A stretch of DNA of 64,000 nucleotides from Lycium barbarum. Lineage: Eukaryota; Streptophyta; Magnoliopsida; Solanales; Solanaceae. The first letter of the stretch is position 1. Each line of letters starts with the position of its first letter. This document shows positions 1,133-64,000 of this stretch, piece after piece. The notes under the pieces are model-generated. The model saw only the letters and a list, made by a program, of their open reading frames with translations, ran no database searches and was not told the DNA's origin. The stretch spans positions 62,156,884 to 62,220,883 of the forward strand of contig NC_083338.1 in NCBI RefSeq assembly GCF_019175385.1. The letters run 5' to 3'. The translations under genes and the position numbers were made by a program.

Positions 1133-2690
1133 GGCTAGAAGACATTTTCAGAAAAAGAAAGCTTTATTAAAAGTATCTTTATTAAAGCAGCCACAGTAAA
1201 TGGACAGATCAGCAAATGGACAAGAAAAATAAAGTTTCTTTTAGAAAAGCTCACGTGACGATGGGGCCCAAAGAGCACCCGGATGAACTCAAAGATTCTT
1301 TAGTGTTTTGAAATCCGAAGTTGAAGTCCGCCAGACACCTATAAATAGCAACATTTGTGGAGAAACAAAGACATCACCAAGAAGGGCACCAACCACCTCT
1401 CTCTAGAAAACTTCCATACTCCCCTTCTCTTTCATCAAATGCTCCAATCTCTTTTCCCATCCAAACCCCTTGTAATATAAACTCATATTATTAAGTTTTT
1501 AATACCTACCCCCTAGTGTGAAGTAGTTTTGGGGTTCCCCAAAAGGGAAACCTCTCTCCTTCTTCAAACCATGTAAGTTTATTTACTATGTATTCTGTGC
1601 TACTCTCCCTATTATGTAAATTATTTCGTGATTGTATGAATATTATGTTTAAGCGATTATTTCCTTGTCATCATGAACCTGTTATTCTTAGTATATGGTT
1701 ATTCTCTTAACTTCTTAATAACCTCGATGGATTAACCTGTAAATTACTAGGTTTTAAAGAGGCCGTTTTAATATCCAAATAATGAAGGACGATGTTGGCC
1801 GTGGTCACCGGGGTATGGTTAAAGATGACTGTTATTAAGAACAAAGGTTAAAAGAAAGAGATGAACAGTATAACAAGATTCATGACTGGACAGAGTCCAG
1901 ATTATTAAAAAAAAAAAAAACTAAAATTTTGGGAGATAGACAGAAAATTAGAAATATAACTACATGATAAGAAGAAATATAGGAGTGAGGAAGTACCGAG
2001 TAGGATTGTTAAAAATTTATTTGAAAAACAACATTAATTTCCCTGCTTTGTCTTTTGAACTTTTCTTATTGAAAGAACTTATTGAAAAATTACTACCCCT
2101 CTCATATATATATCTATATACACACACTAATGGGGTACTAATAACAATAAGCTCTTTTTCCTCCTCTTAAAGATAATTTGAGGATTTCAGTTTAACTTTT
2201 ACTTTTTGCTACTGGTACTCATTTGTTGATTATGATCTATAAACTAAGATAGCTACGATCATAAATTGGAAGTATTATCTGTTGATGAGGTTTCATTAAA
2301 TATGATTATGTGTAACAATTAACCAATATTGCATTTTGTCATATCCAAAACCTAAAGCGTGTAAACCAGACCAATATGACGCAATTTGACAATGATGTTG
2401 AGAGAAAAGGTAGGTTATAATTTTGATTATCAGTACAACTGGGATGCTTATGAAAAAGGAAGCTAAAAGTTACCACCTTTAAAATTATCCGATGATATAG
2501 GTAACTTAATATAGTGACAAGGCACAAAATTTAAAATCTATAGTAGCCAGGTACTAATGACAATGTGCTCTGTTTTCTCCAAATATAGATAGTTTATGAA
2601 TTTTTCAATTCGATGTTTACTCTTTACTACTATTAACATGTAGATTTTGTAGTGAGATATTTGCTACTCCATCTATTTTAATTTGTTTTT
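1133..2690 (+). other. Unassigned promoter-like and AT-rich sequence
   Basis: No gene is visible. There is a G-box-like CACGTGAC near 1252-1259, a TATA box at 1340-1347 (CTATAAATAG context) followed by a pyrimidine-rich leader, and a GTAAGT donor-like site near 1572. An A-run lies at about 1906-1919. This could be the regulatory end of a retroelement or an endogenous pararetrovirus, but no reverse transcriptase or coat gene is next to it. From about 1930 on the sequence is AT-rich with an imperfect internal repeat (about 2130-2230 against 2550-2650). Near 2664-2690 a degenerate Stowaway-like end precedes the next LTR. Confidence 0.35.
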
Positions 2691-4485: not shown

Positions 4486-4542
4486 CTGCGGGCATAAAAC
4501 GCAGCCCCCCGAAGAAAGGGGGTCAGTACGGAATATGTACTG
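4486..4542 (-). other. R-U5 triple-hairpin module, copy 1
   Basis: On the sense (minus) strand: CAGTAC/GTACTG, then a GC stem of the CCCCC/GGGGG type, then CTGCG/CGCAG closing a loop with ATGCC. 57 nt. Confidence 0.7.
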
Positions 4543-5432: not shown

Positions 5433-7464
5433 CTCTAAGAGAGTATGACATATCACATGAGCGGGACAGGACCCCGCTATGCCCGTAATTATATACACAA
5501 AAGAATGAATACCCAAAAGCTATGGCTCCGGAAGAAATGGAGCTCTACTATGTAATCTCTGAATAAGCAGCTATGGATCAAGTCTGTCTCCCTGTGCACC
5601 TGCGGGCATGACGCAGCGTCCACAAACAAAAGGACGTCAGTACGAAAAATGTACTGAGTATGTAAAGCATGATCAACATCGATATACAAGCATGATGAAC
5701 AACAGATGAAATAGCATAGGAGGGGAGACAATAATATCATCGTTATAGCACTTACTTGCCTCTCATAGGGACCTTCCATTTCTCATACGTATTAGTACAC
5801 ATACGTCATCATCCGTATTCCCTAATAGTACTCGTACCATACTTGTGCTCGTATTCATATACATGTCCTTATTCGTATTCATATACATAGTCTTATCACA
5901 TTCACATTCATTTTATATACATAGTCATTTCATATACATAGCATTTACATAGCATACCCAACCTCATAGGATCGGTGTTTCATACATACTTGGCCAACCA
6001 AGGCTCAAGGTTACTCATACCTGGCCCTACCAAGGCTTCAGGGTTATTCGTACCATCTGCAGAGGTGTGCGCGCGTTTTGTAATCGTATGCATACTTTAT
6101 ACACATTCATATACATATATTCTACCCGGCGTATAAGCTCGGGGTTTCATTATAGCCCTTCATAGGCACATATAAGTATAATAGCCCGTAGGCACCTTTA
6201 GCATCATTATTATTATTATCATTACTAACATCATCATTATCGTTACTTCTATATCATAGGCTTGCTCGTCGTATGAGGTGCGTAGTACAATCGTAGTACA
6301 TATCAAGGATCGTGAGCTTATGAGCTCGGAATATCAATCATTTGGAGACAACATATTCATATAGAAGATTTAAGAGTTTGGCCAAGGGACCATGCCTTAT
6401 GAAAGAAGGGTTAGCCTTACATACCTTTTCGTCGAATTATTCTACACTTGCACGTTCCCTTCCAATGCTAGCGTTTATACCTTCATTAATATCATAACAA
6501 TGGCCATTAGTCATTCACCTTATCCACATTCCTTAACTTGCTTCTAATTCACCCATACTCATGGTCATAACACCCAACTTCGTCCATTCATCTAAAGTGT
6601 CTAGTTCATGATCTTGATACCATTTACAACACATTCATATCACAACACAACAACATTCATGATTCAATTCAAACTATTCCTCAAAATGTCACTATTCATC
6701 ATTCATAACCCATTTTACCATATTTTCTACAATCCATGTATTTTAATTCTCCAATACCTTAAACATCATGTAAATATCATGAATCTTACCTTAGAAGTTG
6801 TAGGAGCAAGCTTTAGTTGATAATACTCCTCCTTGAGCAAAACCCTAGTTTATCTCCATTTGGATTTCTTGACTTTGAATGATCTTTGATGATTTCCTTA
6901 CTCTTGATTCTCTTGTTTAATGTTGTTGATGACTTATGATCCTTGAAAACTTGGATAATAAATGTAGAGAGAGCTTTTAGAGAGAAAGTGTGTAATGTAG
7001 AAATGAAATAAAACAAATGTTTGTCCCTTTATTTAATGAATTGCAAATCTGTGCTGAGGTGAACAGTGATCTTAAACTGAGTTTATGACCCGTATTCCAT
7101 TTTACAGTTCGTCCATCGCGGTCGTCTTTAACCTTTTCAAAAACCAAAAACTTTGGCTGTTTGCATGGTGATTTACGACCATGGTTTACGGACCGTAAAT
7201 CACTTTACGGTCCGTATTCCAGGTCATATTATACCATTCCTCGACTGGCAGAATGTTGAAGTCTTGCATGCCAATTTACGACTGCCAGTTTACGGACCGT
7301 ATACCAATTTACGGTCCGTCCTAGCACTTTACGACCACTGGGCAGTTGCAAATCTGCAACTTCTCATATTTCTTAGACTTCTCATTTTAATCATCCACAT
7401 CCATTTGCATGCATCACTAGTTCATTTACTTGCGTTCCAACGGGAAATTTTCCGAGGTGTAACA
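5433..7464 (-). repeat. Element 1 3' LTR (3'-truncated)
   Basis: Co-linear with 12952-14983 at identical length. It keeps U3 with the ACGG/CCGT palindromes (about 7070-7335), a donor-like AAGGTAAGA (GT at 6788-6789), the hairpin module (5600-5656) and a minisatellite-like stretch (about 5965-6070). It lacks the U5 end with the terminal hairpin. Paired ORFs seen in both LTRs are repeated noncoding sequence. Confidence 0.92.
5600..5656 (-). other. R-U5 triple-hairpin module, copy 2
   Basis: Sense strand: CAGTAC/GTACTG, CGTCC/GGACG, CTGCG/CGCAG. All three stems intact; 57 nt. Confidence 0.75.
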
Positions 7465-12667: not shown

Positions 12668-13118
12668 CTTTTGTCACGACCCGACTAGGGGGCCGCGACG
12701 AGCACCCGGTGCTAGCCCACCCGGGCACCCTCTTAGCTTACTCTTATGCTTACATCTAGGTGAGCCACATAATTATACATGCATTTCCATTCATTCGTCA
12801 ACTAGTCCCATTGGACGACATTACTATTATATCATAATTTGCATCTATGCCACATCAATGTACATGGGCCAACGTGGCCGACAAAATGACATACAACATA
12901 TAGGCCGACAAGGCCAGATATATCTATACATATATGCATGCGACTACGAGCCTCTAAGAGAGTATGACATATCACATGGGCGGGGCAGGACCCCACTATG
13001 CCCGTAATTATATACACAAAAGAATGAATACCCAAAAGCTATGGCTCCGGAAGAAATGGAGCTCTACTATGTAATCTCTGAATAAGCAGCTATGGATCAA
13101 GTATGTCTCTCTGTGCAC

Positions 13119-13175
13119 CTGCGGGCATGACGCAGCGTCAACAAACAAAAGGACGTCAGTACGAAGAATGTACTG
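13119..13175 (-). other. R-U5 triple-hairpin module, copy 3
   Basis: As the 3' LTR copy except one substitution in the H2 loop and one in the H1 loop (CTTC instead of TTTC); stems unchanged. Confidence 0.75.
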
Positions 13176-14546
13176 AGTATGTAAAGCATGATCAACATCG
13201 ATATACAAGCATAATGAACAACAGATGAAATAGCATAGGAGGGGAGACAATAATATCATCGTTATAGCACTTACTTGCCTCTCATAGGGACCTTCCATTT
13301 CTCATACGTATTAGTACACATACGTCATCATCTGTATTCCCTAATAGTACTCATACCATACTTGTGCTCGTATTCGTATACATGTCCTTATTCGTATTCA
13401 TATACATAGTCTTATCACATTCACATTCATTTTATATACATAGTCATTTCATATACATAGCATTTACATAGCATACCCGACCTCATAGGATCGGTGTTTC
13501 ATACATACTTGGCCAACCAAGGCTCAAGGTTACTCATACCTGGCCCTACCAAGGCTTCAGGGTTATCCGTACCATCTGCAGAGGTGTGCGCGCGTTTCGT
13601 AATCGTATGCATACTTTATACACATTCATATACATATATTCTACCCGGCGTATAAGCTCGGGGTTTCATTATAGCCCTTCATAGGCACATATAAGTATAA
13701 TAGCCCGTAGGCACCTTTAGCATCATTATTATTATTATCATTACTAACATCATCATTATCGTTACTTCTATATCATTGGCTTACTCGTCGTATGAGGTGC
13801 GTAGTACAATCGTAGTACATATCAAGGATCGTGAGCTTATGAGCTCGGAATATCAATCATTTGGAGACAACATATTCATATAGAAGATTTAAGAGTTTGG
13901 CCAAGAGATCATGCCTTATGAAAGAAGGGTTAGCCTTACATACCATTTCGTCGAATTATTCTACACTTGCACGTTCCCTTCCAATGCTAGCGTTTATACC
14001 TTCATTAATATCATAACAATGGCCATTAGTCATTCACCTTATCCACATTCCTTAACTTGCTTCTAATTCACCCATACTCATGGTCATAACACCCAACTTC
14101 GTCCATTCGTCTAAAGTGTCTAGTTCATGATCTTAATACCATTTACAACACATTCATATCACAACACAACAACATTCATGATTCAATTCAAACTATTCCT
14201 CAAAATGTCACTATTCATCATTCATAACCCATTTTACCATATTTTCTACAATCCATGTATTTTAATTCTCCAATACCTTAAACATCATGTAAATATCATG
14301 AATCTTACCTTAGAAGTTGTAGGAGCAAGCTTTAGTTGATAATACTCCTCCTTGAGCAAAACCCTAGTTTATCTCCATTTGGATTTCTTGACTTTGAATG
14401 ATCTTTGATGATTTCCTTACTCTTGATTCTCTTGTTTAATGTTGTTGATGACTTATGATCCTTGAAAACTTGGATAATAAATGTAGAGAGAGCTTTTAGA
14501 GAGAAAGTGTGTAATGTAGAAATGAAATAAAACAAATGTTTGTCCC

Positions 14547-14557
14547 TTTATTTAATG
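14547..14557 (-). promoter_or_regulatory. TATA-like box of element 1 5' LTR
   Basis: Sense strand ATTAAATAAAGGGAC, immediately downstream of the palindrome cluster. The same AT-box followed by GGGAC(C) recurs at this place in LTRs A, B and of elements 2 and 3. Confidence 0.5.
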
Positions 14558-14983
14558 AATTGCAAATCTGTGCTGAGGTGAACAGTGATCGTAAACTGAG
14601 TTTACGACCCGTATTCCATTTTACAGTTCGTCCATCGCGGTCGTCTTTAACCTTTTCAAAAACCAAAAACTTTGGCTGTTTGCATGGTGATTTACGACCA
14701 TGGTTTACGGGTCGTAAATCACTTTACGGTCCGTATTCCAGGTCGTATTATACCATTCCTCGACTGGCAGAATGTTGAAGTCTTGCATGCCAATTTACGA
14801 CTGCCAGTTTACGGACCGTATACCAATTTACGGTCCGTCCTAGCACTTTACGACCACTGGGCAGTTGCAAATCTGCAACTTCTCATATTTCTTAGACTTC
14901 TCATTTTAATCATCCACATCCATTTGCATGCATCACTAGTTCATTTACTTGCGTTCCAATGAGAAATTTTCCGAGGTGTAACA

Positions 14984-15502
14984 GAGGGAGTATATGCCAA
15001 ATGAAGGAAATGAAAGGATAATTGAGACACTGCGGACACGTGGGGACCTAAAAAGTAAACACACAAGAAGTAGAATTAATGTTCTGAAATGTACACATGT
15101 TAGTCCCTCCTTAGAGTATAATTTCATGTGCTTTCTATAATAGAGTAATAAAATGAAGTGTAGAAGTAAAGAAATATGATAACGTAAAAGTATGATACAC
15201 GTGTACAGGTAGCAAACCAAGTCTACTAGTACATGTATCCCAACATGATTAATTTTGGTTACTCACTTTAGTTAGTCTTTATGGTTTCTATATTTTGGAA
15301 AGGATGCCGCGATTCTCCTTAGTGAATCTCCATATTTTATTTCTGTTCCTCTTGTTTTTCCCCTTAATTTCTTAATTATTGTTAAAATTTATCTTATTTT
15401 GATTATGTCCGCCTCTTTTTATATTTACTAAGTTGACAATTCAAATATCTTACATGTCAAGTTTATAATCACAAAATTCAAAGAATATTTTATTATATTA
15501 TA
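14984..15502. repeat. Tandem repeat unit 1, left part
   Basis: Begins GAGGGAGTATATGCC and is about 90 percent identical by eye to 29316-29830. No ORF of note. Its right part lies at 29224-29315, beyond LINE 1; joined length is about 611 bp. The last 19 bases (15484-15502) are the LINE 1 target duplication. Confidence 0.85.
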
Positions 15503-25142: not shown

Positions 25143-25572
25143 ATAACAAATATTGTAGGAAAGAGAATGCAGTCATAGTATCATGGAAATATGGCACTCA
25201 ACTCTGGAAGAAAATGATACAAGCAAGAGAAATAATGAAGCATCAGATCTGGTGGCAAACTAAAATGCGAAATGCTAATTTTTGGTTTGATAACTGGATA
25301 GGAATGGGGGCTTTGTACTATATTAATCAAGGGGATACTTATGACTCTAGCATACAGGTTGTTAATGAGATGGTGAATGGTGGATAATGGGATGTTGGGA
25401 AACTGACAGAGGTGGTATCACAGGATATAGTCCAACATATTCTGAATACCATTTCACCACCCAGAGACAATACAGAGATGGACAAGCCTTGGTGCTTATT
25501 GAATAACAAAGGGGATTTTACAGTGAAAACTGCTCGGGATTTTGTAAGATTAAGAAGTCAAGAATCTGATGT
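25010..25572 (+). pseudogene. LINE 1 ORF2, post-RT region
   Basis: Shifted frame ENLCLPTKEGGLGFRSLHDVSMAIYCKLSWNFR, the well-conserved block after RT in plant L1 proteins, then WKKMIQAREIMKHQIWW and NFWFDNWIGMGAL. A TAA ends it at 25385-25387; the next stretch, DNTEMDKPWCLLNNKGDFTVKTARDF, is the start of the zf-RVT region. It is cut by the RTE insertion near 25573. Confidence 0.82.
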
Positions 25573-29223: not shown

Positions 29224-29315
29224 CACACTTTTAATTTAGAACCACAAGATTGAAAAGTCTATTTTTATTTCTTAAACTCCGTGTCTAGTCAAACTTAGAC
29301 ACTTAAATTGAGACA
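29224..29315. repeat. Tandem repeat unit 1, right part, with Stowaway-like end
   Basis: Holds the end ACTCCGTGTCTAGTCAAACT...GAGACAGAGGGAGTA, the reversed terminal sequence of a Stowaway/Tc1-Mariner type MITE next to TA. Confidence 0.75.
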
Positions 29316-29904
29316 GAGGGAGTATATGCCAAATGAAGGAAATGAAAGGACAATTGAGACACTGCAGACAGGTGAGGACCTAAAAAGTAAACACACAAGA
29401 GGTAGAATTAATGTTCTGAAATGTACACATGTTGGTCCCTGCTTAGAGTATAATTTCATGTGTTTTCTATAATAGAGTAATAAAATGAAGTGTAGAAGTA
29501 AAGAAATATGATAACGTAAAAGTGGAATACACGTGTACAGGTGGCAAACCATGTACAGTAGTACATGTAGCCCAACATGATTAATTTTGGTTATTTACTT
29601 TAGTTAGTCTTTATGGTTTCTATATTTTGCCAAGGATGTCGCGATTCTCCTTAGTGAGTCTCCATATTTTATTTCTTTTCCGCTTGTTTTTTCCCTTAAT
29701 TTCTTAATTATTGTTAAAATTTGTCTTATTTTGGTTATGTCTGCCTCTTTTTATATTTAGTAAGTTGACAATTCAAAATATCCTACATGTCAAGTTTATA
29801 ATCACAAGATTCAAATGATATTTTAATTTAGACCACAAGATTCAAAAGTCTTTTTATTTCTCAAACTCCGTGTCTAGTCAAACTTAGACACTTAAATTGA
29901 GACA
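29316..29904. repeat. Tandem repeat unit 2 (complete, 589 bp)
   Basis: Starts GAGGGAGTATATGCC, ends with the same Stowaway-like terminus; unit 3 starts directly after. Only intact unit in the window. No coding potential. Confidence 0.85.
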
Positions 29905-30381: not shown

Positions 30382-30438
30382 CTGTGGGCATGAACACAGC
30401 GTCCAAAGAAAACGGACGTCAGTACGAACATTGTACTG
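30382..30438 (-). other. R-U5 triple-hairpin module, copy 4 (LTR A)
   Basis: H3 is CTGTG/CACAG instead of CTGCG/CGCAG, a compensatory change; H2 is CGTCC/GGACG with an added closing CG. Confidence 0.75.
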
Positions 30439-31780: not shown

Positions 31781-34700
31781 TGTCACGACCCAAACCCCGT
31801 GGGCCGCGACTGGTACCCTAACTGGGTACCCATACGTACCTACCCGGTCGAATTCGAATCATACAGATTTTTTTTTTTTAAAACAGAAGTTACAAAAGTA
31901 GGCCGATACAACTACGGCACGCGCGCAAACATATATATATCTGGACATACAGAAACATGTCGATAAGGCTAACATACAGACGAAACCCGTAACCCACACA
32001 TCTATCTACAGGCCTCTACAGACATACAGAGTCATATGACGGGACAGGGCCTCGCCGTACCCAGAATATCCATACATACAGAGTATACAGAAGACAGGAG
32101 ATATATACCAAAAATATACGCTCCGGATCAAAGGAGCTCTTCAAAACAGCTGAATCAGAAACCTACGCTGGCGGCGTATCACCTGGTGCGTCGGTACCTG
32201 CGGGCATGTAGCGCAGCCCCCGAAGAACGGGGGTCAGTACGAAAAATGTACCGAGTATGTAAAGCAGAACATAACAGATATAAACATAGTCCGAACCGGA
32301 GTCACAGAAATATACCGAACAGAACCATAAATCAGACTGACGGACAGTGTCATGATCCAGACAGACATACAGAACCGTGTGCCATACAAATAAACAGAAT
32401 TATGGTTCGGACAGACAAACGGAATCATAATACGGACAGACGAGCAGAATCAGAATCCATACGGACATACAGAATCAGAATCCATACGGACATACAGACG
32501 TAGTCGTCTTTCAGACGGACAGACAGAAGTATGTCGGACAGAATTATGCATTCAGAGTAGTACAGAGTCATACAGAATCATACAGAGGCATGTGCTTATA
32601 TAAATATAGATAGCACACGCATACATTCATACAGATCCCGGCCCTGTCTGGGGGCGCGGTAACAGAACCCGGCCCTCTTAGTACGGGACGCGGTGGACAG
32701 ACAGAATCAGATCAGATCATATGCTATCCTGGCCGCCATCCCCATACACAGTTCATAATATCATACAGACATACAGATCCCGGCCCGCACGCCGAGGGAA
32801 GCGGTGAACAATGCAGAGGAATATGCACGATAACAGAACCTGGCCCGGGACGCAGTGAAGGAATGCATTGAGACAGACACGAACCGATAAATGAGAAACT
32901 ACTTACATACAGACTCAACATACAGACTCAATCAAACTGAAGGGTGCCAAACGGCGAGTCAAAATCAGAGTATCCAGATAGTATGCATAGTACGCGCCTA
33001 TATCCTATTTGGGAAGGCACGACAGATTATTAGCAGAATCAGATTCTCAGATGTTCAGAAATCATTTTGTAAGAATTGCATAAAAATAGTTGTATCATAA
33101 TCAAAATAATAGTTCAATTGTTTTCTGAGAAAATCGGACAAAAGGGAAGTATTTAAAGTATTACAGAAGATATCGGGCCTTGTGGGCCCGCCTCGGACCA
33201 ACTCGAGGCAACATATGTAAATTATCGCTAATAGACCTTATGAGGTCATCCATAATCGTTTGGAAGTGTTCCGACTCCGTTTAGGGAGGTTTTGTACAAA
33301 AACTCACTTTAAAGGCAATTTGCAAGAAAATAGCTTCAAATGAATTGAAGGAATTGGAGCGGTTTTCCGTCTCGAATTCCGGGGAACGAAGTCGTACTTA
33401 AGGCTCGCGGCCGAGCCTATCACATCCAGAACATGCCTAAGAACAAAGGGAAAGGCTTCACATACCTCGATAGCGCCTCACGCTCGCTTGGCGTCGATCC
33501 CAAGTTCGTCCAAAATCTAGAAATGGTCAAGTTTACCATTTGTTAGTTTCAACTTTTCCATAGTGCAAACTTAACACATACTTGCCTACCGAAATTTCGG
33601 CAGCATTTCCTCTGTATATATGACATCCCCAAAAGTTAAACACAGCCAAACAATCAACACAACCCAACAACAATATTCATAATAACGACAAGTAGCTCAA
33701 AATACATAATAAGGCACAATTTGCCAACTTTCCGTCATAACTTAATATTTTCCGTTCCGACCTTACACTTCCAAACCAAACTTATTATTTTGATGTTCAT
33801 TACCCATCAAATTCATTACAACACGATTTGGAGGCGTATCATACCATTCTCACAAGATATACATAAGATATGCAAACTTACAAACTTTCCGTCAAAGCCA
33901 CAATTTATCCAATTCTCCTAACCTTCAACATACAAGTTCATTATACAATTCCATCTTCCAAATTCATCAACAATAATCATAATTTGCCTCTTGATACATT
34001 CATTTCCATTTTTACATAAATCATAACAAAGTTGCATACTTTCCTACAACAACTTGATAACCATTTTTCCATAGCAACAAGAATCATTATCCTTTCATTC
34101 ACTTCACAATAACACAATTGGCATACTAACGGAATTTGATTAACATTCCATTGTTAGCATGACACCACACGGCCATACACTAATTTTTCCAACTTTCACT
34201 AATTCATTCAACTTTCACTTCTAATACAATTTCTTCCATAACTACAACAAGATTTCAACAAAAATTCAACTCATCACAAGTATACAACACACACACACAC
34301 ACGGTCAAAACCTCCCACACGGCCAACACATATTCACACACATAACACACAAGTTTCATACTTCTTACTCAATTCCACACTCTACAACATGCATACACCT
34401 TCCATAACATAACAAAGGCATGAAATTCTTACCTTTTTCTTCAAATTCTTCACTTGGAGGATAAAATTGTTTTCTTGCCACAATACTTATATTAACTTGT
34501 AGAGAACCTTGAGCTTAGTACTAATATCACAAGACTTGGATTTTTAAATCAAAGATTTGGCTCCCAAAATTTTTCTTTCTTTTCTCTCTTCTTTTCTCCT
34601 CAAACCCGAAACCCTCTTATCTTTTTTTTTCTTGCTTGCTCTTTATTTTTTTCTTGAATGTTCCAAAGATGAACATTGGTCCAAGTATATACCCTTCATG

Positions 34701-36037: not shown

Positions 36038-36094
36038 CTGTGGGCATGAACACAGCGTCCAAAGAAAACGGACGCCAGTACGAATATTGTACTG
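36038..36094 (-). other. R-U5 triple-hairpin module, copy 6 (LTR B)
   Basis: H2 is lengthened to GCGTCC/GGACGC; H3 CTGTG/CACAG. All stems perfect. Confidence 0.75.
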
Positions 36095-36920: not shown

Positions 36921-39900
36921 TGTCACGACCCAACCCCGTAGGCCGTGACTGGTGCCCGACTTGGACACCCGTATACATATTCTTAGCTATATGTTCATTT
37001 CACAACAAACTCATTATGGATCTTATAACGACCAAACCATGGTCTCAAAACTGTCACGTAATCAATACATATAAAGGCAAGCCGACAAGGCTGCTACCAC
37101 AATAGAATAAGCATACTGATAACACACACACAACTGATCACGTCTGAATATGACCCACACACATGTCCACAGACCTCTAAGAGTTCCAACAGTAAAATAT
37201 GACGGGACAGGGCCCCGTCGTACCCATAGTCAACATATGCATATATTTAGATCAGAAAGGATCTATACCAAATCTGGGCTCCGGAACAACGGAACTCTCC
37301 AAAATAGCAGAAGGGAAATCCTAAGCTGACGGATCACCAAAGCGAGTATCTGCACCTGCGGGCATGAAACGCAGCCCCCCGAAGAAAGGGGGTCAGTACG
37401 GAATATGTACTGAGCATGTAAAGTATGAAATACAGTAAACAGGATCATAACTGAAATAAGAGTACAGAAAATGAGTATCATAATCAGAATACCAAATACT
37501 CGCTTTCGAAACATAAATCATGCACATTAATATCATATATCATATCCGGCCCCATTATGGGACTCGGTGAACATGGTCGCCACCCCGTCTCTGGCGCCAT
37601 AACACAGCATACTCCAGAATATAATATAACTCCGTAACACAGCATAACTCCGTAACACAGCATAACACCATAACACAGCATAACACCATAACACAGCATA
37701 ACACCATAATATATATACCGTACCGTCCCCTTTTACTGAGGGACGCGGTGAACAATGCAGTGAGACTGTGCACGATAACATACCCGGCCCGGGACTCGGT
37801 GAAAGATATATTGAGATATGCACGAGCATAGTAGTGAGGAACTATATGCAATTTAAAACATTTTAAGGACTCAATAGGATAGTCAACACGAACCATCGTT
37901 CGCAATTTCAAATAATAATCATATCATATACCTTTCGGATGTCCCTGTGGATTATATCAAAATGGAACTTTGAAATCATATGTACATATCAGTATATACG
38001 AAGCAAAACATAAATTATGTGAATCAAGATCAATAGCCATCCTAGTGGCTCTAGGAGTAGGAGTTTCCTTTGGAATCGTATATATATCGTGTATTCATTT
38101 CACAACGATCATGCCAAAAAGAAAGAAGAGTTAGCTTCACATACCTTTAGCGCTTATTCGCCACACAATATGTATACGCTACCCAATAATACTTCAACCT
38201 ATATTAAGACGCCAACAACTACGATTAAGCTACGGGGAGATTCAAAACGTATTCTAGCGTTAGTAACTCATTTCTAGATGTTTAGTCGATGTTTTCTCTT
38301 ATATCCAAACCAACTACATACAACCAATCCAACATCAATAATTATATGTTCAATACCAATCCGGGCAGCCCACACAATATTCCAAACAGCCCACATTCAC
38401 AACATGCAATAACGATTCACATACGGCTACTACGTTCTCAAGTTACTCCTAATTGTTCGTAGCCTTAACGTTTTCATGTAACAACTTTACAACAGCCCAA
38501 ACACTATGAAAACATGATGTATACTCTTAACTATAATTAGTTTTTCCAACTTAATGAAAACACAAGTCCAAAACAGTCCCTAACCAACAACACATCCAAA
38601 ACAGTCCCTAACCGACAACATAACAATGTTCGGAATTCTTGCAAACGTTTACGAACATATTAAGCAAACCACATACGATTCTTACACATTATTTCATGTC
38701 TTCTTTTCATATAATTTCAGTAGGTTATGACCAGCAATCCACACGACAAGTACAACATCAATTCATACGCAACTAAGCTACATCGTCATCTCTATAATCC
38801 TTACAACAACTCACAAACGACTTTAGTTTCAACTCCAACCATTAAACACCTTCATTTCCATCATAAAATTCATGACAATAACAATCAAAATATCAAGTAA
38901 AATCAGTTCACTAACTTCTTACAAAAACAGTCCACTACACGACTACACCATGCTTCAACATCACTCACATAAAATCATAGATTCAATTATTTTCATACTA
39001 ACACAACTTCACCTTTAACCTTCCAATTCTTTTCATTCTTTTTACCATGCAATCTATGATAGTAACAACCATAATTACTAAAGAAAATCAGTCCAACCAT
39101 TTCACCCAAAACAGTCCCCACGGCCACAACATCATTCCAACACCAACATTCATGATTTTATGCATGTAATTCATGTTCACCAAGTTACTACCATACTTCA
39201 ACATCAACATATATAACTCCATGGTTACTATCATGTTCCAACATCAACACACATCATTTCATGCATACAACTTATATTTACACATCTACATCACCCTTAA
39301 TACATGAAAAGAATGTTAGATCTTACCTTGACAACTTGACTTCTCAACTTGGCTAGAGTTTGTGAATTGAAATGAAAATGGTCCTTGTTTCTCCAATGAC
39401 TATCTTCACGTTTCTAGGGACCTTCTAAAGGGTTGAAACACCTTGGAAAATAATTTTTGTATCAAGACTCAAGGAGCTAATTTTCAGCCCTCTTGGCCGA
39501 ATGCTTTCTCTCTCCCTCTCTAGGGTTTTCTAGTTTTCTTTCTTTGTGTTGTGAAGTTGAAATGAATGTAATGGATGATTTCTTAGTCATTATTTGGTTA
39601 ACTATGATGCCTACAAGTTGGGCACATGCTCCACTCATGACCTTGAGTCACTCTATTAACTTTACACTTAAATTTCTATTTCTTTTCTTCACACTTTTGG
39701 CTAGTGTGTTGGTCGAGCACCTCCCTTTGTTTCCTTTCTTCTTTCTTTTCAATTTTTTACAAGACAATTGCATGTGTGGTGGATGATTCACACACTAACC
39801 TTTGTCCATTGTAATCATACAAGATGAATGGTCAATATTTAAATATGAAATGATTCCTCCAACATGTTATGTCTTCATAAAATAATGCATGCCTTCATTA

Positions 39901-43510: not shown

Positions 43511-44361
43511 TGTCACGATCTAACGGGAGGGCCATGATGGGCACCTGGAGCTAACCCACCGGGCACTTCTCATAATACTTTCACGATCATATTTAGGTGA
43601 GTCATATGGCCTGGTAACAATCTCCACGCATCAATAATTCCATTTCCATCGGCTAAAACACTTTTATATTAACGTCAGCGACTATGCCCATATATATATA
43701 CACAAGTTGACGAGGCTAACAAAATGATATACAACAATATGAGCCGGCAAGGCTAAAAGACATCTAACTATACACAATTATCCACGAGCCTCTAAGAAGA
43801 GTATGAAACATCATCATATAGATGGGACAGGGCCCCGCCATGCCCATGTGTATATACACAAAAGAATAGTACCATCAGCTGCAACTCCGGATCAAATGGA
43901 GCTCCTCTAAGCAATCTCTCGATAAGCAGCCTAAGGATCAAGTCTATCCCTCTGTCCACCTGCGGGCATGACGCAGTGTCCACAAACAAAAGGACATCAG
44001 TATGAATAATGTACTGAATATGTAAGGCATAATCAATAACATAATAGAAGCATGAACGATAACATAAGAAAGAAAAGTTCTGGGATAATAGAGCCATTTA
44101 TACCTCTAGCGACGTTCATCATATTCACTTACCCTTTTGCTAATGGGAACCTTCCATTACATACACTTATACATATAGTAGTATCATACCTAACCATAGA
44201 GGTTCAGTGTCTTACATACCCGACCATGACAAGGTTCGGTGTTATACATACCTGGCCGTACCATGGCTCAGTGTTATCCGTACCCAACTGCAGTGGTGCG
44301 CGCGCAATAGATATCGTACCAGGCCATATAAGCTCGGTGTTCTTAATAGTTATGCTTTGAT

Positions 44362-50475: not shown

Positions 50476-50533
50476 CAGTACATTGCTCGTACTGACGTCC
50501 TTTCTTTTATGGACGCTGTGCTCATGCCCACAG
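50476..50533 (+). other. R-U5 triple-hairpin module, copy 9 (element 2)
   Basis: H1 CAGTAC/GTACTG, H2 CGTCC/GGACG, H3 CTGTG/CACAG; 58 nt. Confidence 0.75.
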
Positions 50534-56119: not shown

Positions 56120-56217
56120 TGTTACACCTCAAAAAATTTCATGTAGTTGTGCGGTAAATAGACTAACGTAGGGTAAGAGGTATATGATGTCCCTACAAGT
56201 AAGAAGGGGAACTTAAC
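56120..56217 (+). repeat. Element 2 3' LTR, first 98 bp
   Basis: TGTTACACCTC onward, co-linear with 48684-48781 until ACTTAAC, where element 3 inserts. Confidence 0.92.
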
Positions 56218-56218
56218 G

Positions 56219-58683
56219 TGTTACACCTCGGAAATTTCTCCGTGAGCGTACAATGAATAGACCAACGAAGAGTATGAGTGTACGGTGTTTTACTAAGAAG
56301 GGGATGACTACTTATGAGTTTTGAAAATGCGAAAGTTGCAGATTTGCACTTCGACCCAGTTGGTCGTAAAATAGAATACGGCCCGTAAAGTGGTTTACGG
56401 ACCGTAAACTGCTATCGTCTTTCAACATTCCAAAACTTCAACTTTCTGCCAAATGTCTAAATGGTTAAATACGACTCAGAATACGAACCGTAAATCGAAA
56501 TACGACCCGTAAACTGTGACCGTAAACCACCATGACCTCCAGAAAACCTTTCTGGTTCTGTTATGCTTAAATACGGTCGTGAGAGACGAACCGAAAACCA
56601 GAATACGGCCCGTAAAATGGGTTTACAGCCACTGTGCACTTTCGACGACTGTTCACTTCAGATCAGATTTTGGGTTATTAAAAAGGGGACCAAGTTTATT
56701 ATTTCATTTCACTTCACTTCTACATGACACCCCTTCTCTCTAAAACATCTCTCTACATAAATTTCACAAGAATTCAAGGATATTTGGTGATCAACAACAT
56801 AAACTAAGTGAATCAAGTATAAGAAAACCCATTAAGGATCATACAAGTCAAGAGATCTCATTGGAGATAAACTAGGGTTTTTCTCAAGTGGAGTATTATC
56901 AACTAAGGCTTGTTCCTACGACATCTAAGGTAAGATTTATGATGTTTCGATGTTGTTTAAGGTATTTAAGAGTTGAAATACTTGGATTGTAGAGAGGTTT
57001 GGCAAAATGGGTCATGAATGTGGAATAGTGTCATTTTAAGAAATAGTTTGAATTGAGTTATGAGTCTTGATGTATTGTGATGTAAATGTGTTATAAATGA
57101 TGTTGAGAACATGAGATGAGAAATTTACGTGAATGGACATAGTTGTGTGTTATAGCCATGGATACGAGTAATTGAAAGTAAGTCTAGAAATGTGGATAAT
57201 GTGAATGAATAATGATTATTATTATGGTATTGTGAATGCATTATTGACGTTTGGGAGTTGATATACGCTATGGAGGAATGTTGTAGAAATAAAGGAAAGG
57301 TTGTCCGATTTTCTCTAGTTTTGGTCAGATATGCTAGCTAACGATTCTAATGATAGTATGACTTTAATGAAGGTAGAAACGCTAGCATTGGAGGTGAACG
57401 CGCAAGTCTAAAATAGTGAACGGAAAAGGTATGTAAGGCTAACCCTTCTTTCATAAGGCATGGTTCTTTGGCCAAATATCTAACTCTTTTATGAGACAGT
57501 GATGTCCTTCAAATGACGATCTCCCGAGCTAGTAAGCTCATGATTCTTGGTACGCCACGATTGTACTAAATCCCTCGTATGACGAGTAAGCCTATAAAGA
57601 TAAATGTGATAAATCACGATAATAGTAATAACGATGTTGATGACGATTATGATAATGATGTAAATAGTAAAGATGCTTATGAGATATTATGTATATGTGT
57701 CTATGTATGACTATTATGGAACCCCGAGCTTATGAGGCCGGGTAAGATATGTAAATTAGTATGTATATGATTACGTAATGCGCGCACACCTCTGCAGATG
57801 GTACGGATAACCCTGACGCCTTGGTAGGGCCAGGTAGATGTAACCCTGAAGCCTTGGTAGGGCCAGTTATGAGTAACCTTGAGCCTTGGTTGGCCAAGTA
57901 TGTATGAAACACCGATCCTGCATGGTCGGGTATGCTATATAAATGCTATGTATATGATATGATTATGTATATGATATGGTTACGAGTATGAATACGAATA
58001 TGATACGATATAAATGTGAATAAAGGTATGTATACGAATACGAGTACAAATACGGAACAGAGAGATCCTATGCACGGCAAGTAAGTGCCTATGACGATGA
58101 TATTACTATCTCCCATCTTGTGTTATTTCTCATGTTGCGTATTATGCTTCTATATTGATATTGATCATGCTTTACATACTCAGTACATTCTTCGTACTGA
58201 CGTCCTTTTGTTTATGGACGCTGCGTCATGCCCGCAGGTGCACAGGGAGACAGGCTCGATCCATAGCGGTATTCTCAGAGACTCCCTAGCAGAGCTCCAT
58301 TTCATTCGGAGCCATAACTTTTGGGTACTTATTCTTTTGTGTATATAATTATGGGCCTAGCGGGGTCTTGTCCCGCTTATGTGACATGTTATACTCTTCT
58401 TAGAGGCTCGTAGACATGTGTATATGGTTAGATATGTCTGGCCTTGTCGGGCTATATTTTGTATATCATTTTGATAGCCTTGTCGGCTCATGTACATTGT
58501 CGTGGTATAGATGCCAACCATGATATGAAAGCATTGTCGTCCAATGGGACTAGCATGAATGATGAACAGAAATGTACGTTTAATTATGTGGCTCACCTAG
58601 ATGTAAGTATAAGTGTAAGCCAAGGGGTGCCCGAGTGGGCTAGCACCGGGCGCTCGTCGCGGCCCCCTAGACGGGTCGTGACA
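56219..58683 (+). repeat. Element 3 5' LTR (2465 bp)
   Basis: TGTTACACCTCGG to GTCGTGACA. Palindrome cluster about 56350-56620 (perfect TTTACGG-A-CCGTAAA at 56394-56408), TATA-like TTATTAAAAAGGGGACC (56675-56690), donor AAGGTAAGA (GT at 56930-56931), short repeats with CCTTGGTAGGGCCAG (about 57818-57900), hairpin module, terminal hairpin (58656-58665 with 58673-58682). Confidence 0.95.
58181..58237 (+). other. R-U5 triple-hairpin module, copy 10 (element 3, 5' LTR)
   Basis: H1 58181-58186 with 58194-58199, H2 58201-58205 with 58216-58220, H3 58221-58225 with 58233-58237. A fourth stem GCTCC/GGAGC follows at 58294-58312 and a fifth AGCGGG/CCCGCT at 58359-58377. Confidence 0.78.
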
Positions 58684-58687
58684 AAGG

Positions 58688-58699
58688 TGATATCAGAGT
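58688..58699 (+). other. Primer-binding site (element 3), mutated
   Basis: TGATATCAGAGT, two changes from the initiator-Met site, 4 nt after the LTR. Confidence 0.88.
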
Positions 58700-59454: not shown

Positions 59455-61342
59455 GGTGATCGCGTATGCTTCAAGGCAATTACGGAAACATGAGCGGAAT
59501 TATCCAACCCATGATTTAGAATTGGCCGCAGTGGTTCATGCGTTAAAGATATGGAGACATTATTTATAAGGTGTCCATGTGGATATTTATATAGATCATA
59601 AGAGTCTACAGTATATCTTCAAGCAGAAAGAGCTGAATTTACGGCAACGACGATGGTTGGAATTGCTAAAAGATTATGATGTTTATATCTTGTATCACTC
59701 CGGAAAGACAAATGTTGCAGTTGATGCTCTTAGCCGCAGATCTATGGGAAGTTTGTGTGATGTACGACCCGAGAGGAGAGAAATGACTCGTGAGCTCCAG
59801 CAGTTAGCTAGCCTAGGAGTTCGAGTAGTGGACTCAGGTAGCAGGGGGACTACTATCTAGAATTCAGCAGCCTCATCGCTAGTGGCAGAAGTGAAAGAGC
59901 GACAATATGAAGATCCCATGCTAATGCATTACAGAGATACACACCCTCAGAAAGAGGAGTCATCATTTGATATCACAGGAGACGGAGTTCTCCGATGCCG
60001 AGGCAGAGTATGCGTTCCTGATGTGGCAGGATTACGCCACCAGATATTGAGGGAAGCTCATTGTTCCCGTTATTCTCTTCACCCCAGAGCGACGAAAATG
60101 TATCATGACCTCAAGTCGATATATTGGTGGAATGGAATGAAGAAAGATATAACGGAATTCGTAGCTCAATGTCCCAATTGTCAACAAGTGAAAATCGAGC
60201 ACCAAAAGCCGGGTGGATTGTTGCAAGCTATAGAAATCTCAATTTGGAAGTGGGAAGTGATTAACATGGACTTCATTACAGGCTTACCCCGTTCTCGCCG
60301 TAAGTATGACTCCATATGGGTGATTGTGGATAGACTCACCAAGTCAGCTCATTTATTACGAGTCAGGACGACGCATATGGCAGAAGATTATGCAAAGTTT
60401 TATCTTAAAGAGATAGTAAGACTCCATGGTGTTCTAGTATCTATTATCTCAGACAGAGGAACTCAGTTTACAGCCAATTTTTGGAAGTCTTTCCAAGAGG
60501 GTTTAGGGACCCAAGTGAGCCTTAGCATGACATTTCACCCGCAGACCGATGGACAAGCTGGGCGCACCATTTTGACTCTTGAAGATATGTTACGGTCATG
60601 TATGATAGATTTCGGAGGTAATTGGGATGATCATTTGCAACTCAATGAATTTTCTTACAATAACAGTTATCATTCTAACATTCAGATGGCACCGTACGAA
60701 GCTTTGAATGGGCGAAAGTGTAGATCCCCGATTGGGTGGTTCGAAACAGGGAAGGCTAGATTGATAAGGCCAGACTTGGTCCAACAAGCCATAGAGAAAT
60801 TCAAGCTCATACAGGATCGGTTGTTAGCAGCCCAAAGTCGTCAAAAGTCCTATGCGGATAATCGTCGAAGAGACTTAGAGTTCCAAGTGAAAGATTGGGT
60901 ATTCTTGAAAGTGTTACCGATGAAGGGTGTAATGAGATTTGGCAAAAGGGGGAAGCTTAGTCCCCGATACATTGGACCTTATGAGATTGTGAGAAAGATA
61001 GGAAAAGTGGCCTATGAGCTTGACCTACCTCCGGATTTGGAATCAGTCCATCCAGTTTTCCATGTCTCGATGCTTCGAAAATGTGTTGGAGATTCTACTA
61101 CGATCGTGCCAATAAGTGATGTGCAAGTGACAGAAAAGTTGAATTATGAAGAAGTGCCCATTGCCATACTAGATAGGCAAGTACGGAGGCTTAGAAACAA
61201 AGAGGTGACCTCAGATAAGGTTCTATGGAGGAGCAGTAAACGAGAAGAAATGACATGGGAAGCGGAAGAGAGTATGCGATCCAAATACCCGCATTTATTC
61301 CAACCCCCAAAAGAGATTCAAGATGAAACGCTAACGACATAA
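59438..61342 (+). pseudogene. RNase H and integrase with chromodomain-like tail (element 3)
   Basis: Resumes at [36 protein letters not shown]. Stops at 59567-59569 (after WRHYL) and 59858-59860 interrupt one continuous frame. From 59882, 486 codons are open: finger region ([12 protein letters not shown], one residue changed from [12 protein letters not shown]), core [22 protein letters not shown] and TDGQAGRTILTLED, where the catalytic Glu is replaced by Gly, then [14 protein letters not shown] and [20 protein letters not shown] to the natural stop. Protease and RT are absent, so the element can move only with help in trans. Confidence 0.92.
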
Positions 61343-61510: not shown

Positions 61511-61546
61511 AACATTCGAGGACGAATGTTCTTAAGGGGGTGAGAA
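61511..61546 (+). other. Palindrome and polypurine tract (element 3)
   Basis: AACATTCG/CGAATGTT (61511-61530) then TTAAGGGGGTGAGAA abutting the 3' LTR. Confidence 0.87.
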
Positions 61547-64000
61547 TGTTACACCTCGGAAATTTCTCCGTGAGTGTACAATGAATAGACCAACGAAGAG
61601 TATGAGTGTACGGTGTTTTACTAAGAAGGGGATGACTACTTATGAGTTTTGAAAATGCGAAAGTTGCATATTTGCACTTCGACCCAGTTGGTCGTAAAAT
61701 AGATTACGGCCCGTAAAGTGGTTTACGGACTGTAAACTGCTATCATCTTTCAACATTCCAAAACTTCAACTTTCTGCCAAATGTCTAAATGGTTAAATAC
61801 GACTCAGAATATGGACCGTAAATCGAAATACGACCCGTAAACTGTGACCGTAAACCACCATGACCTCCAGCAAACCTTTCTGGTACTGTTATGCTTAAAT
61901 ATGGTCGTGAGAGACGGACCGTAAACCAGAATACGGCCCGTAAACTGGGTTTACAGCCACTGTTCACTTTCGACGATTGTTCACTTCAGATCAGATTTTG
62001 GGTTATTAAAAAGGGGACCAAGTTTATTATTTCATTTCATTTCATTTCACCTCTACATGACACCCCTTCTCTCTAAAACATCTCTCTACATAAATTTCAC
62101 AAGAATTCAAGGATATTTGGTGATCAACAACATAAACTAAGTGAATCAAGTATAAGAAAACCCATTAAGGATCATACAAGTCAAGAGATCTCATTGGAGA
62201 TAAACTAGGGTTTTGCTCAAGTGGAGTATTATCAACTAACGCTTGTTCCTACGACATATAAGGTAAGATTTATGATGTTTCTATGTTGTTTAAGGTATTT
62301 AAGAGTTGAAATACTTGGATTGTAGAGAGGTATGGCAAAATGGGTCATGAATGTGGAATAGTGCCATTTTGAGAAATAGTTTGAATTGAGTTATGAGTCT
62401 TGATGTATTGTGATGTAAATGTGTTATAAATGATGTTGAGAGCATGAGATGAGCAATGTACGTGAATGGGCATAGTTGTGTGTTATAGCTATGGATATGA
62501 GTAATTGAAAGTAAGTCTAGAAATGTGGATAATGTGAATGAATAATGATTATTATTATGGTATTGTGAATGCATTATTGACGTTTGGGAGTTGATATACG
62601 CTATGGAGGAATGTCGTATAAATAAAGGAGAGGCTGTCCGATTTTCTCTAGTTTTGGTCAGATATGCTAGCTATCGATTCTAATGATAGTATGACTTTAA
62701 TGAAGGTAGAAACGCTAGCATTGGAGGTGAACGCGCAAGTGTAAAATAGTGAACGGAAAAGTTATGTAAGGCTAACCCTTCTTTCATAAGGCATGGTTCT
62801 TTGGCCAAATCTCTAACTCTTCTATGAGACTGTGATGTCCTTCAAATGACTTGATCTCCCGAGCTAGTAAGCTCATGATTCTTGATACGCCACGATTGTA
62901 TTAAATCCCTCGTATGACGAGTAAGCCTATAAAGATAAATGTGATGAATCACGATAATAGTAATAACGATGTTGATAACGATTATGATAATGAAGTAAAT
63001 AGTAAACATGCTTATGAGCTATTATGTATATGTGTCTATGTATGACTATTATGGAACCCCGAGCTTATGAGGCCGGGTAAGATATGTAAATAAGTATGTA
63101 TATGATTACGTAATGTGCGCGCACCTCTGCAGATGGTACGGATAACCTTGACGCCTTGGTAGGGCCAGGTAGATGTAACCTTGAAGCCTTGGTAGGGCTA
63201 GGTATGAGTAACCTTGAGCCTTGGTTGGCCAAGTATGTATGAAACACCGATCCTGCATGGTCGGGTATGCTATATAAATGCTATGTATATGATATGATTA
63301 TGTATATGATATGGTTACGAGTATGAATACGAATATGATACGATATGAATGTGAATAAAGGTATGTATACGAATACGAGTACAAATACGGAACGGAAAGA
63401 TCCTATGCACGGCAAGTAAGTGCCTATGACGGTGATATTACTATCTCGCATCTTGTGTTATTTCTCATGTTGCGTATTATGCTTCTATATTGATATTGAT
63501 CATGCTTTACATACTCAGTACATTCTTCGTACTGACGTCCTTTTGTTTGTGAACACTGAGTCATGCCCGCAGGTGCACAGGGAGACAGGCTCGATCCATA
63601 GCGGTATTCTCAGAGACTCCCTAGCAGAGCTCCATTTCATTCGGAGCCATAGCTTTTGGGTACTTATTCTTTTGTGTATATAAATATGGGCATAGCGGGG
63701 TCCTGTTCCGCTTATGTGATATGTTATACTCTTCTTAGAGGCTCGTAGACATGTGTATATGGTTAGATATGTCTGGCCTTGTCGGCCTATATTTTTTATA
63801 TCATTTTGATAGCCTTGTTGGCTCATGTACATTGACGTGGTATAGATGCCAACCATGGTATGAAGGCATTGTCGTCCAATGGGACTAGCATGAATGATGA
63901 ACAGAAATGTACGTTTAATTATGTGGCTCACCTAGATGTAAGTATAAGTGTAAGCCAAGGGGTGCCTGGGTGGGCTAGCACCGGGCGCTCGTCGCGGCCC
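61547..64000 (+). repeat. Element 3 3' LTR (cut by window end)
   Basis: Co-linear with the 5' LTR; donor-like AAGGTAAGA GT at 62263-62264; palindromes about 61680-61960. The window ends inside the terminal hairpin. Confidence 0.95.
63516..63572 (+). other. R-U5 triple-hairpin module, copy 11 (element 3, 3' LTR)
   Basis: H1 intact; H2 and H3 each carry mismatches (GAACACTGAG for GGACGCTGCG), so this copy has decayed. Confidence 0.7.

Follow-up and report, generated by a model that had tools for sequence, protein, structure and literature searches.

A block of three short hairpins in the long terminal repeats of Ty3/gypsy elements of Lycium barbarum: selection on pairing and a possible place in the genomic RNA

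The window analysed here is a 64,000 nt stretch of the Lycium barbarum genome (contig NC_083338.1; positions are counted within this window), in which Ty3/gypsy retrotransposons share a block of 56-58 nt within their long terminal repeats (LTRs). The block folds as three adjacent short hairpins (H1, H2 and H3), and our analysis supports the conclusion that selection keeps them paired, clearly for H2 and, on part of the measures, for H3. In the best explanation that we can offer, which we judge to be about evenly poised between right and wrong, the block would be the 5' part of R-U5 (the repeat and unique 5' regions of the LTR) and a cis-acting RNA structure serving the genomic RNA of Tekay/Del-type elements, a reading drawn from sequence comparison.

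Re-reading of the window sequence confirmed all eleven copies of the original prediction, each 56-58 nt long. On the plus strand, the copy at 58181..58237 (H1 58181-58199, H2 58201-58220, H3 58221-58237) is accompanied by one at 63516..63572, in the second LTR of the same element and decayed in H2 and H3, and by a copy of a B-like family at 50476..50533. The minus strand carries two family A copies, at 13119..13175 (within the 5' LTR 12672-14983) and 5600..5656 (in the 3' LTR of the same element); two family B copies, at 30382..30438 (H3 CTGTG/CACAG) and 36038..36094; a copy from a family near A at 43960..44016 (H2 TGTCC/GGACA); and three clade I copies, at 4486..4542 (H2 CCCCC/GGGGG), 37356..37412 and 32198..32253 (clade I/D, with a G-U pair in H1). 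Besides the sequence, these assignments rest on a covariance model (with BLAST in addition for 5600), on pair counts for 13119 and 63516, and on alignment for 32198. Nine elements carry the eleven copies, since the copies at 5600 and 13119 (LTRs 98.6% alike) and those at 58181 and 63516 (96.6% alike) are LTR pairs. The predicted "at least six families" agree with the roughly six lineages in a tree built from the copies. That each copy folds as H1, H2 and H3 holds completely for eight of the eleven: counting standard pairs in stems of 6 + 5 + 5 bp, pairs are missing at 13119 (H2 4/5), 43960 (H1 5/6) and 63516 (H2 3/5, H3 4/5). Among all 43 copies studied, 20 are complete and the remainder show scattered decay. 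All eleven window copies share one H3 loop, ATGCCC.

The block is also abundant outside the window. Searching the genome (1.67 Gb, 164 contigs) for exact matches to a 25-mer from the block gave 3862 + 3866 occurrences, and the reversed control gave none; matches to a covariance model, R1, have E-values down to 1e-20, and the block is therefore above chance. R1 was built from eight copies, the three CCCCC/GGGGG copies being left out, and it recovers all eleven in the window, the excluded ones at 53-56 bits, so that the structure derived from one set of copies holds in another. R1 also found copies elsewhere in the same genome: 24 in twenty stretches of 10 kb, placed at round coordinates, and, in twenty of 2.4 kb, three clear copies and a weak one (L095). 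A density of 27 copies in 248 kb, about one per 9 kb, extrapolates to some 180,000 genome-wide, a very rough figure as the stretches were non-random.

The structural signal peaks at the block. In sliding 57-nt windows over 25 lineage representatives, the mean folding z-score was -2.5 at position -20 and -2.6 at 0. Upstream, between -200 and -40, the means were -0.2 to +0.5; downstream they ranged from -0.9, at +100 near a further hairpin (H4), up to +1.0. The block alone scored below -2 in 15 of the 25. Pair statistics over the 43 copies (40 distinct rows, 500 shuffles) gave 95.1% paired cells versus 89.8% in shuffled alignments (0/500), with 20-51% for slid versions of the structure. The covariation score was 0.221 versus 0.120 (0/500; no slid version exceeded 0.080), and 35 cells carried two-sided changes versus 9.4 (0/500). 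We also applied a tree null, in which the 3' column of a pair is re-evolved on a masked-flank tree with the number and kind of changes kept (42 leaves; L041_71 was dropped as too short), and which is measured by cells paired, two-sided cells and G. H2 gave p 0.0005 on each of these three measures, and H5, a stem further downstream, gave 0.008, 0.010 and 0.0145.

A McDonald-Kreitman-style comparison points the same way. Two-sided Watson-Crick changes account for 7 of 86 stem changes within family A and for 5 of the 6 distinct differences between families (p 9e-5), the exception being H4.1; when seven CpG pairs are excluded, the counts are 4/60 within A and 3/4 between families (p 0.003). For the between-family differences, the majority pairs of A were set against those of B (six copies) or clade I (eight copies), and we picked the family sets from the tree of copies. 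The family A set held 54 copies, made up of 16 and 38 (H3-H5 only), after L049 and L050 had been dropped as duplicates of L007 and L008, and H1 and H2 were left uncounted in eight copies chosen by the 25-mer. On the extended alignment, RNAalifold reported only H1 among the stems listed here (-3.8 kcal/mol), and some folds predict a long-range stem of CUUACAUAC with GUAUGUGUGG.

The limits of the conserved core follow from a divergence profile. Among eight family A copies (28 pairs, none chosen via the 25-mer), no divergence (0.000) is seen in the 12 nt ahead of H1 (58169..58180, plus strand; the proposed boundary region of the unique 3' region, U3, with R), against 0.063 in the block and 0.15-0.20 in the flanks; these 12 nt lie outside R1. 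When family A is compared with clade I, the 12 nt diverge by 0.060 and the block by 0.215; the U3 flank stands at 0.357, which is the shuffled baseline (0.365), the first 200 nt downstream at 0.31-0.33 versus 0.41 shuffled, and the sequence beyond at 0.371 versus 0.382. On this profile, likeness in U3 is lost, the start of R-U5 is partly kept and the core runs from -12 to +57. Because copies were found through the block model, conserved ones are favoured, family A scoring 72-90 bits, well over the threshold. The flanks had been described as unalignable between families, which is correct for the upstream U3 flank of A against clade I (families C and D) and incorrect for the 3' flank: BLAST alignments of about 200-380 nt at 69-80% identity link several families (for example, 43696-44074 with 58123-58497), and at E 1e-10 none joined family A to clade I. 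In the otherwise variable U3 of family A LTRs, GGCAAGTAAGTG is conserved about 100 nt before the block (58076-58087 in the plus-strand element), and its sequence could be that of a donor-like site or a promoter element. TATA-like sites cluster at -32 to -28, chiefly in family A, and are weak evidence.

Two weaker stems follow the block: H4 (58294..58312, plus strand, GCTCC/GGAGC) and H5 (58359..58377, plus strand, AGCGGG/CCCGCT), both recognised by alignment and the tree null. L030_4536 and L045_7549 carry H4 in the re-paired form GCTCT/AGAGC, which L007 has acquired separately. H5 reads AGCGGG/CCCGCT in family A, GACGGG/CCCGTC in the copies at 36038, 37356 and 4486 and in L037_4205 and L030_4536, and GACGTG/CACGTC in L039; it was not found in 8 of the 43 copies. 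The picture of an isolated triple-hairpin module thus needs some amendment: three hairpins are typical, conservation continues more weakly downstream with these two stems, and one group of LTRs, described below, is without H2.

The placement in R-U5 is consistent with the distance of the block to the LTR end, with the variable U3 upstream and with one apparently mosaic LTR, the transcript boundaries themselves being inferred. The mosaic LTR is L043, whose U3 is clade I-like (best match L032, 575 bits) and whose R-U5 resembles that of L034 (201 bits; five matches, none from clade I). Its switch point lies between about -15 and +57, as would be expected of recombination during first-strand transfer; in the available text on the Onsen element, most recombinant LTRs are consistent with a first template switch in R (PMC5668417). 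We also tried to identify mosaic triples by global alignment, and these gave noise and were not used.

If the block is part of R, its transcription would start near -10, and the first 70 nt or so of the RNA would fold as three short adjacent hairpins, kept paired across families by selection. The genomic RNA carries R at each of its two ends, which would suggest, as the most likely role, one in that RNA itself. R would be packed into local hairpins, and these would act in recognition by Gag, and hence in packaging, and in the pairing of minus strong-stop DNA with the 3' R during first strand transfer. Hairpins in the R region of retroviruses act in both of these processes.

Several observations weigh against a selected structure acting as RNA, or temper the statistics above. 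As regards pairing, six pairs show a two-sided change versus 3.9 in shuffled alignments (29/500), and further pair types number 16 versus 14.8 (112/500). In the tree null, H3 passes the 0.05 level by G only (0.0065; 0.058 and 0.0675 on the other two measures), H4 is weak on the first two (0.18 and 0.15, with G at 0.0025), and H1, which hardly varies, is uninformative (0.058, 0.074 and 0.09). This null presumes that there is no recombination, and L034 and L043 hint that whole blocks move; in addition, the L047 row of H5 was out of register both there and in the parsimony counts. In the between-family comparison, the clade I majority at H5.2 comprises only 3 of 8 copies, family B having the same pair in 5 of 6. 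The R-U5 placement is tempered as well: segment distances within family A are decoupled elsewhere too (R2-U5 0.03, U3a-R1 0.23), so that a switch at the block does not stand out and lends the placement mild support only. Over six segments from -510 to +460, in 17 family A copies, the distances of neighbouring segments correlate at 0.03-0.46, and this weak correlation suggests frequent recombination among family A LTRs. The strand signal expected of an RNA, with changes to AC rarer than changes to GU, is missing: by parsimony, 30 Watson-Crick pairs changed to GU and 31 to AC, the cells of the alignment hold 22 GU and 19 AC, and the antisense strand folds as well as the sense strand (mean z -2.50 versus -2.74). 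Frequent CpG decay in private changes, which hits both strands, may mask a weak strand signal. Finally, all copies analysed come from a single genome. Of the "selected RNA structure" originally proposed, selection for pairing is supported by the tree null, the between-family changes and the z-score peak, and action as RNA is without a strand signal.

The LTR group without H2 also belongs here. L095, L035, L040 and L046, tied together by BLAST of L095, keep H3 and mostly H1, and because of this group the three hairpins are to be regarded as typical and not obligatory. H3 is longer in three of them (CTGCATTT/AAATGCAG or CTGCATTC/GAATGCAG) and decayed in L046; H1 is intact in L095, contains G-U in L040 and L046, and is broken in L035. 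The R1 scores of the group, 7-15 bits, hardly exceed those of chance matches in those loci, if at all. The positions are L095:1890-1943(-), L035 at about 1245-1300(+), L046:3077-3130(+) and L040:1739-1792(-), and the LTR of L095 appears to continue directly into a pol fragment.

Ranking next after a role in the genomic RNA, and in our view unlikely, is control of translation, whereby the AUG in the H3 loop would open a short open reading frame (ORF) and the hairpins would gate its use, setting the number of ribosomes that reach gag. In the plus-strand element this upstream ORF, identified by reading ORFs across copies, has 12 codons (58228..58266, plus strand), and the leader from 58171 to the first long ORF (58807) contains 20 ATGs. 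ATGCC is found in the H3 loop of 38 of the 43 copies, many of the 38 being close family A relatives; the ORF has 11-15 codons in 31 of these 38, exactly 12 or 14 in 29, and the 12- and 14-codon forms differ by 6 nt with the frame kept. Its peptides (MPxG...) read MPAGAQGDRLDP in family A, MPAGGQRDRLDP at 43960, MPTGRQGDGADL in B, MPAGTDTRFGEPPA in C, MPAGTDAPGDTPPA in D and MPAGTDRQIDRTPQ in L029. Third codon positions take 29 of 59 changes in two main groups (one-sided p 0.0085) and 34 of 71 when a third group is added (p 0.0077); pairwise codon differences are nevertheless mostly non-synonymous (139 synonymous and 207 non-synonymous, 25 and 57, and 1 and 6 in the three groups, whose members we chose). 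Lineages with an extra base (L030_4536, L045_7549, L034, L036 and L048_5215) read MPRR... in a different frame, and the H3-loop ATG is the first ATG from -10 onward in only 29 of 43 copies. Nor does a stable stem generally follow the stop codon: the 300 nt downstream have z-scores of -1.96 to 0.78 in 11 of 12 copies, with -5.56 at 36038. A ribosome shunt configuration, with a stable stem (z < -2) after the short ORF, was accordingly rejected, being present in just that one copy of the 12.

One could also combine a role in the genomic RNA with the H3-loop start codon. The block would then be a cap-proximal switch, in which the hairpins pack R for packaging or strand transfer, the H3 loop shows the start codon and the RNA is sorted between translation and reverse transcription. 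This would place an ORF of 12-14 codons, largely conserved in frame, within one 70-nt element across the main Tekay-type LTR families of the plant, and we consider it rather doubtful.

Still less probable, in our estimation, is an element that acts as DNA, its inverted repeats binding a dimeric factor or shaping chromatin while RNA folding is incidental. The missing GU-over-AC preference and the equal antisense stability speak for it, as do the invariant H3 loop of the window copies and H1, a nearly invariant palindrome with two GTAC cores, GTAC being what we take to be the core of SBP-type sites. A factor that reads letters would, however, hardly tolerate the change of H2 from CGTCC to CCCCC in clade I with pairing kept, and the three adjacent hairpins stand in constant order. 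In two divergent lineages with GU pairs, L029 and L036, only the sense strand folds (z -2.53 and -1.85, versus 0.02 and 0.28 for antisense), though these are two cases only.

Much the same, and marginally lower, is our estimate for an absence of structural selection, where the spread of a young family, gene conversion, LTR recombination and CpG decay together make the pattern. Two of the three two-sided changes originally put forward, TGTCC/GGACA and CTGTG/CACAG, can be reached by CpG deamination on opposite strands, and CCCCC/GGGGG cannot. Parsimony finds eight two-sided Watson-Crick changes at the tips, four of them in CpG pairs and one (L047) an alignment artefact, and private decay is plain when 63516 is compared with 58181. 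Sharing through LTR recombination, which had been named as a possible refutation, applies in part: L034 and L043 share the clade I block, and the sequences suggest that their CCCCC/GGGGG form was probably swapped in from a clade I-like block and did not evolve twice. On the other side, the two-sided excess persists without the CpG pairs, albeit in small numbers; the tree null keeps column rates; within family A the block diverges far less than its flanks; and the structure peak is limited to the block.

Very improbable is a 3' splice site at the end of the block, for which the signals would be a CTGAC branch point, a run rich in U and GCAG|GT, together with a donor some 100 nt before it. GT follows the block in 38 of 43 copies, several families have donor-like sites between -95 and -119 (CAAGTAAGT in family A, AGGGTAAGT at 43960) and L095 ends with a long U-rich stretch and ATGCAG. 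Against this, the best donor averages 6.7 versus 5.5 in shuffled sequence on the donor matrix used, at least 35% of shuffles equal the best donor in 11 of 25 representatives, including most of clade I, and splicing has no need of three paired stems.

Returning to the block as an RNA structure of R-U5, stem-loops are well known from the R region of retroviruses, as in the TAR and poly(A) hairpins. The available text of PMC3601003 links "residual" conservation of long R regions to stem-loops, and states that plant Metaviridae LTRs could not be modelled owing to their length variation. Our block resembles such stem-loops in consisting of short hairpins with both arms conserved, in a part of the LTR that is probably transcribed; it differs in having three short adjacent hairpins, in having no Rfam match and in that the R boundaries are inferred. 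The ribosome shunt of plant pararetroviruses, as far as described in the accessible part of PMC5902531, shares a long leader, a short 5'-proximal ORF and a downstream tRNA-Met primer site; in our elements the AUG is within the loop of a hairpin, and 11 of 12 copies have no stable stem after the ORF. Retrozymes likewise place structured RNA, with hammerhead ribozymes, in plant LTRs (PMC4918200, available text), whereas neither a hammerhead nor any other Rfam family matched the window at gathering score, the best match in 58150-58690 being SNORD82 (E 4.3). Searches of open-access literature, mostly of titles and abstract openings, found no earlier description of the block, and block sequence strings had no matches in the papers covered; the main text of a 2025 review of plant LTR elements (PMC12786077), to the extent available, contains none of "hairpin", "secondary structure" and "dimer". 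R-region stem-loops are thus a known kind, of which this instance is apparently new among the open-access literature searched.

Searches in other sequence collections yielded only chance matches. Nineteen stretches matching a block pattern in IMG/VR proved, on inspection of their letters, to be chance matches in viral contigs; a further pattern search matched at least 120 stretches, and R1 on 80 of them gave three with E of 0.05 or less (best 21 bits, E 0.013), again attributable to chance. One block pattern had no match in prokaryote contigs. The integrase was without a match in viral contigs, where a search with an alignment gave one locus (best R1 score 11.5 bits, E 0.21), and a protein look-up with one sense frame through the block returned no match.

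The block lies in LTR elements, among whose marks in the window are a primer binding site (PBS), a polypurine tract and a 5-bp target site duplication. The plus-strand element is preceded by the duplication TAACG (56214..56218), whose second copy lies directly past the window end. Its 5' LTR (56219..58683; defined by the LTR ends and the PBS) is 2465 nt long, and the block begins at LTR position 1963, leaving 446 nt between its end and that of the LTR. A degenerate tRNA-iMet PBS (58688..58699) follows; the first long ORF, from 58807, has no Pfam match. The integrase ORF (59882..61342) matches H2C2, rve, SH3_Tf2-1 and, weakly, Chromo in Pfam, and the polypurine tract (61534..61546) precedes a 3' LTR recognised by LTR comparison (61547..64000, its last 18 nt, up to 64018, falling outside the window). 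For the minus-strand element of family A, the 5' LTR (12672..14983, from PBS and LTR ends) measures 2312 nt, with 447 nt from block end to LTR end. LTRs of both lengths have TG...CA ends. A PBS scan found 19 PBS-like sites, with a filter that required a GTGACA-like end ahead; the site at 25413 is not at an LTR end.

Gag, protease, RT and integrase of Ty3/gypsy type are represented by the Pfam domains Retrotrans_gag, RVP_2, RVT_1, Integrase_H2C2 and SH3_Tf2-1, which are spread over the ORFs of several elements in the window. The chromodomain (PF00385) after the integrase is a weak match (17.3 bits, E 0.0047, under the cut-off of 25.1), and PF00385 is present in several integrase relatives, some from Solanum, Nicotiana and Tanacetum, among the matches listed (120 of 7971). 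Long LTRs and an iMet PBS, which we take to be marks of Tekay/Del, are the basis of the lineage name, and the elements are most likely chromodomain-type Ty3/gypsy elements of that lineage. In PMC11728184, most active elements of sunflower are Tekay, which are chromodomain-type Ty3/gypsy elements, as ours probably are; its available text treats proteins and insertions, unlike the focus on RNA structure here. One integrase relative (P0014, 74% identical) is filed under Corynebacterium sp. MC-10, and is probably plant contamination of a bacterial assembly. The window also contains 513-bp direct repeats (14981-15492 and 29313-29825; 93% alike, about 14.3 kb apart), between which lie a 1212-aa ORF of LINE type, with endonuclease, RT and zf-RVT, and other ORFs.

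The cis-acting RNA signals of plant Ty3/gypsy elements, for packaging, strand transfer and translation of the leader, seem barely mapped, and the block, a delimited target of 70 nt, lends itself to structure probing and to assays on the leader. With the covariance model, LTRs could be recognised across families even where U3 is no longer alignable. If the block is indeed an RNA element, it would be a very numerous one in its genome. That the same small hairpins are kept while their letters change suggests that it is the shape that matters, perhaps in the element's RNA.

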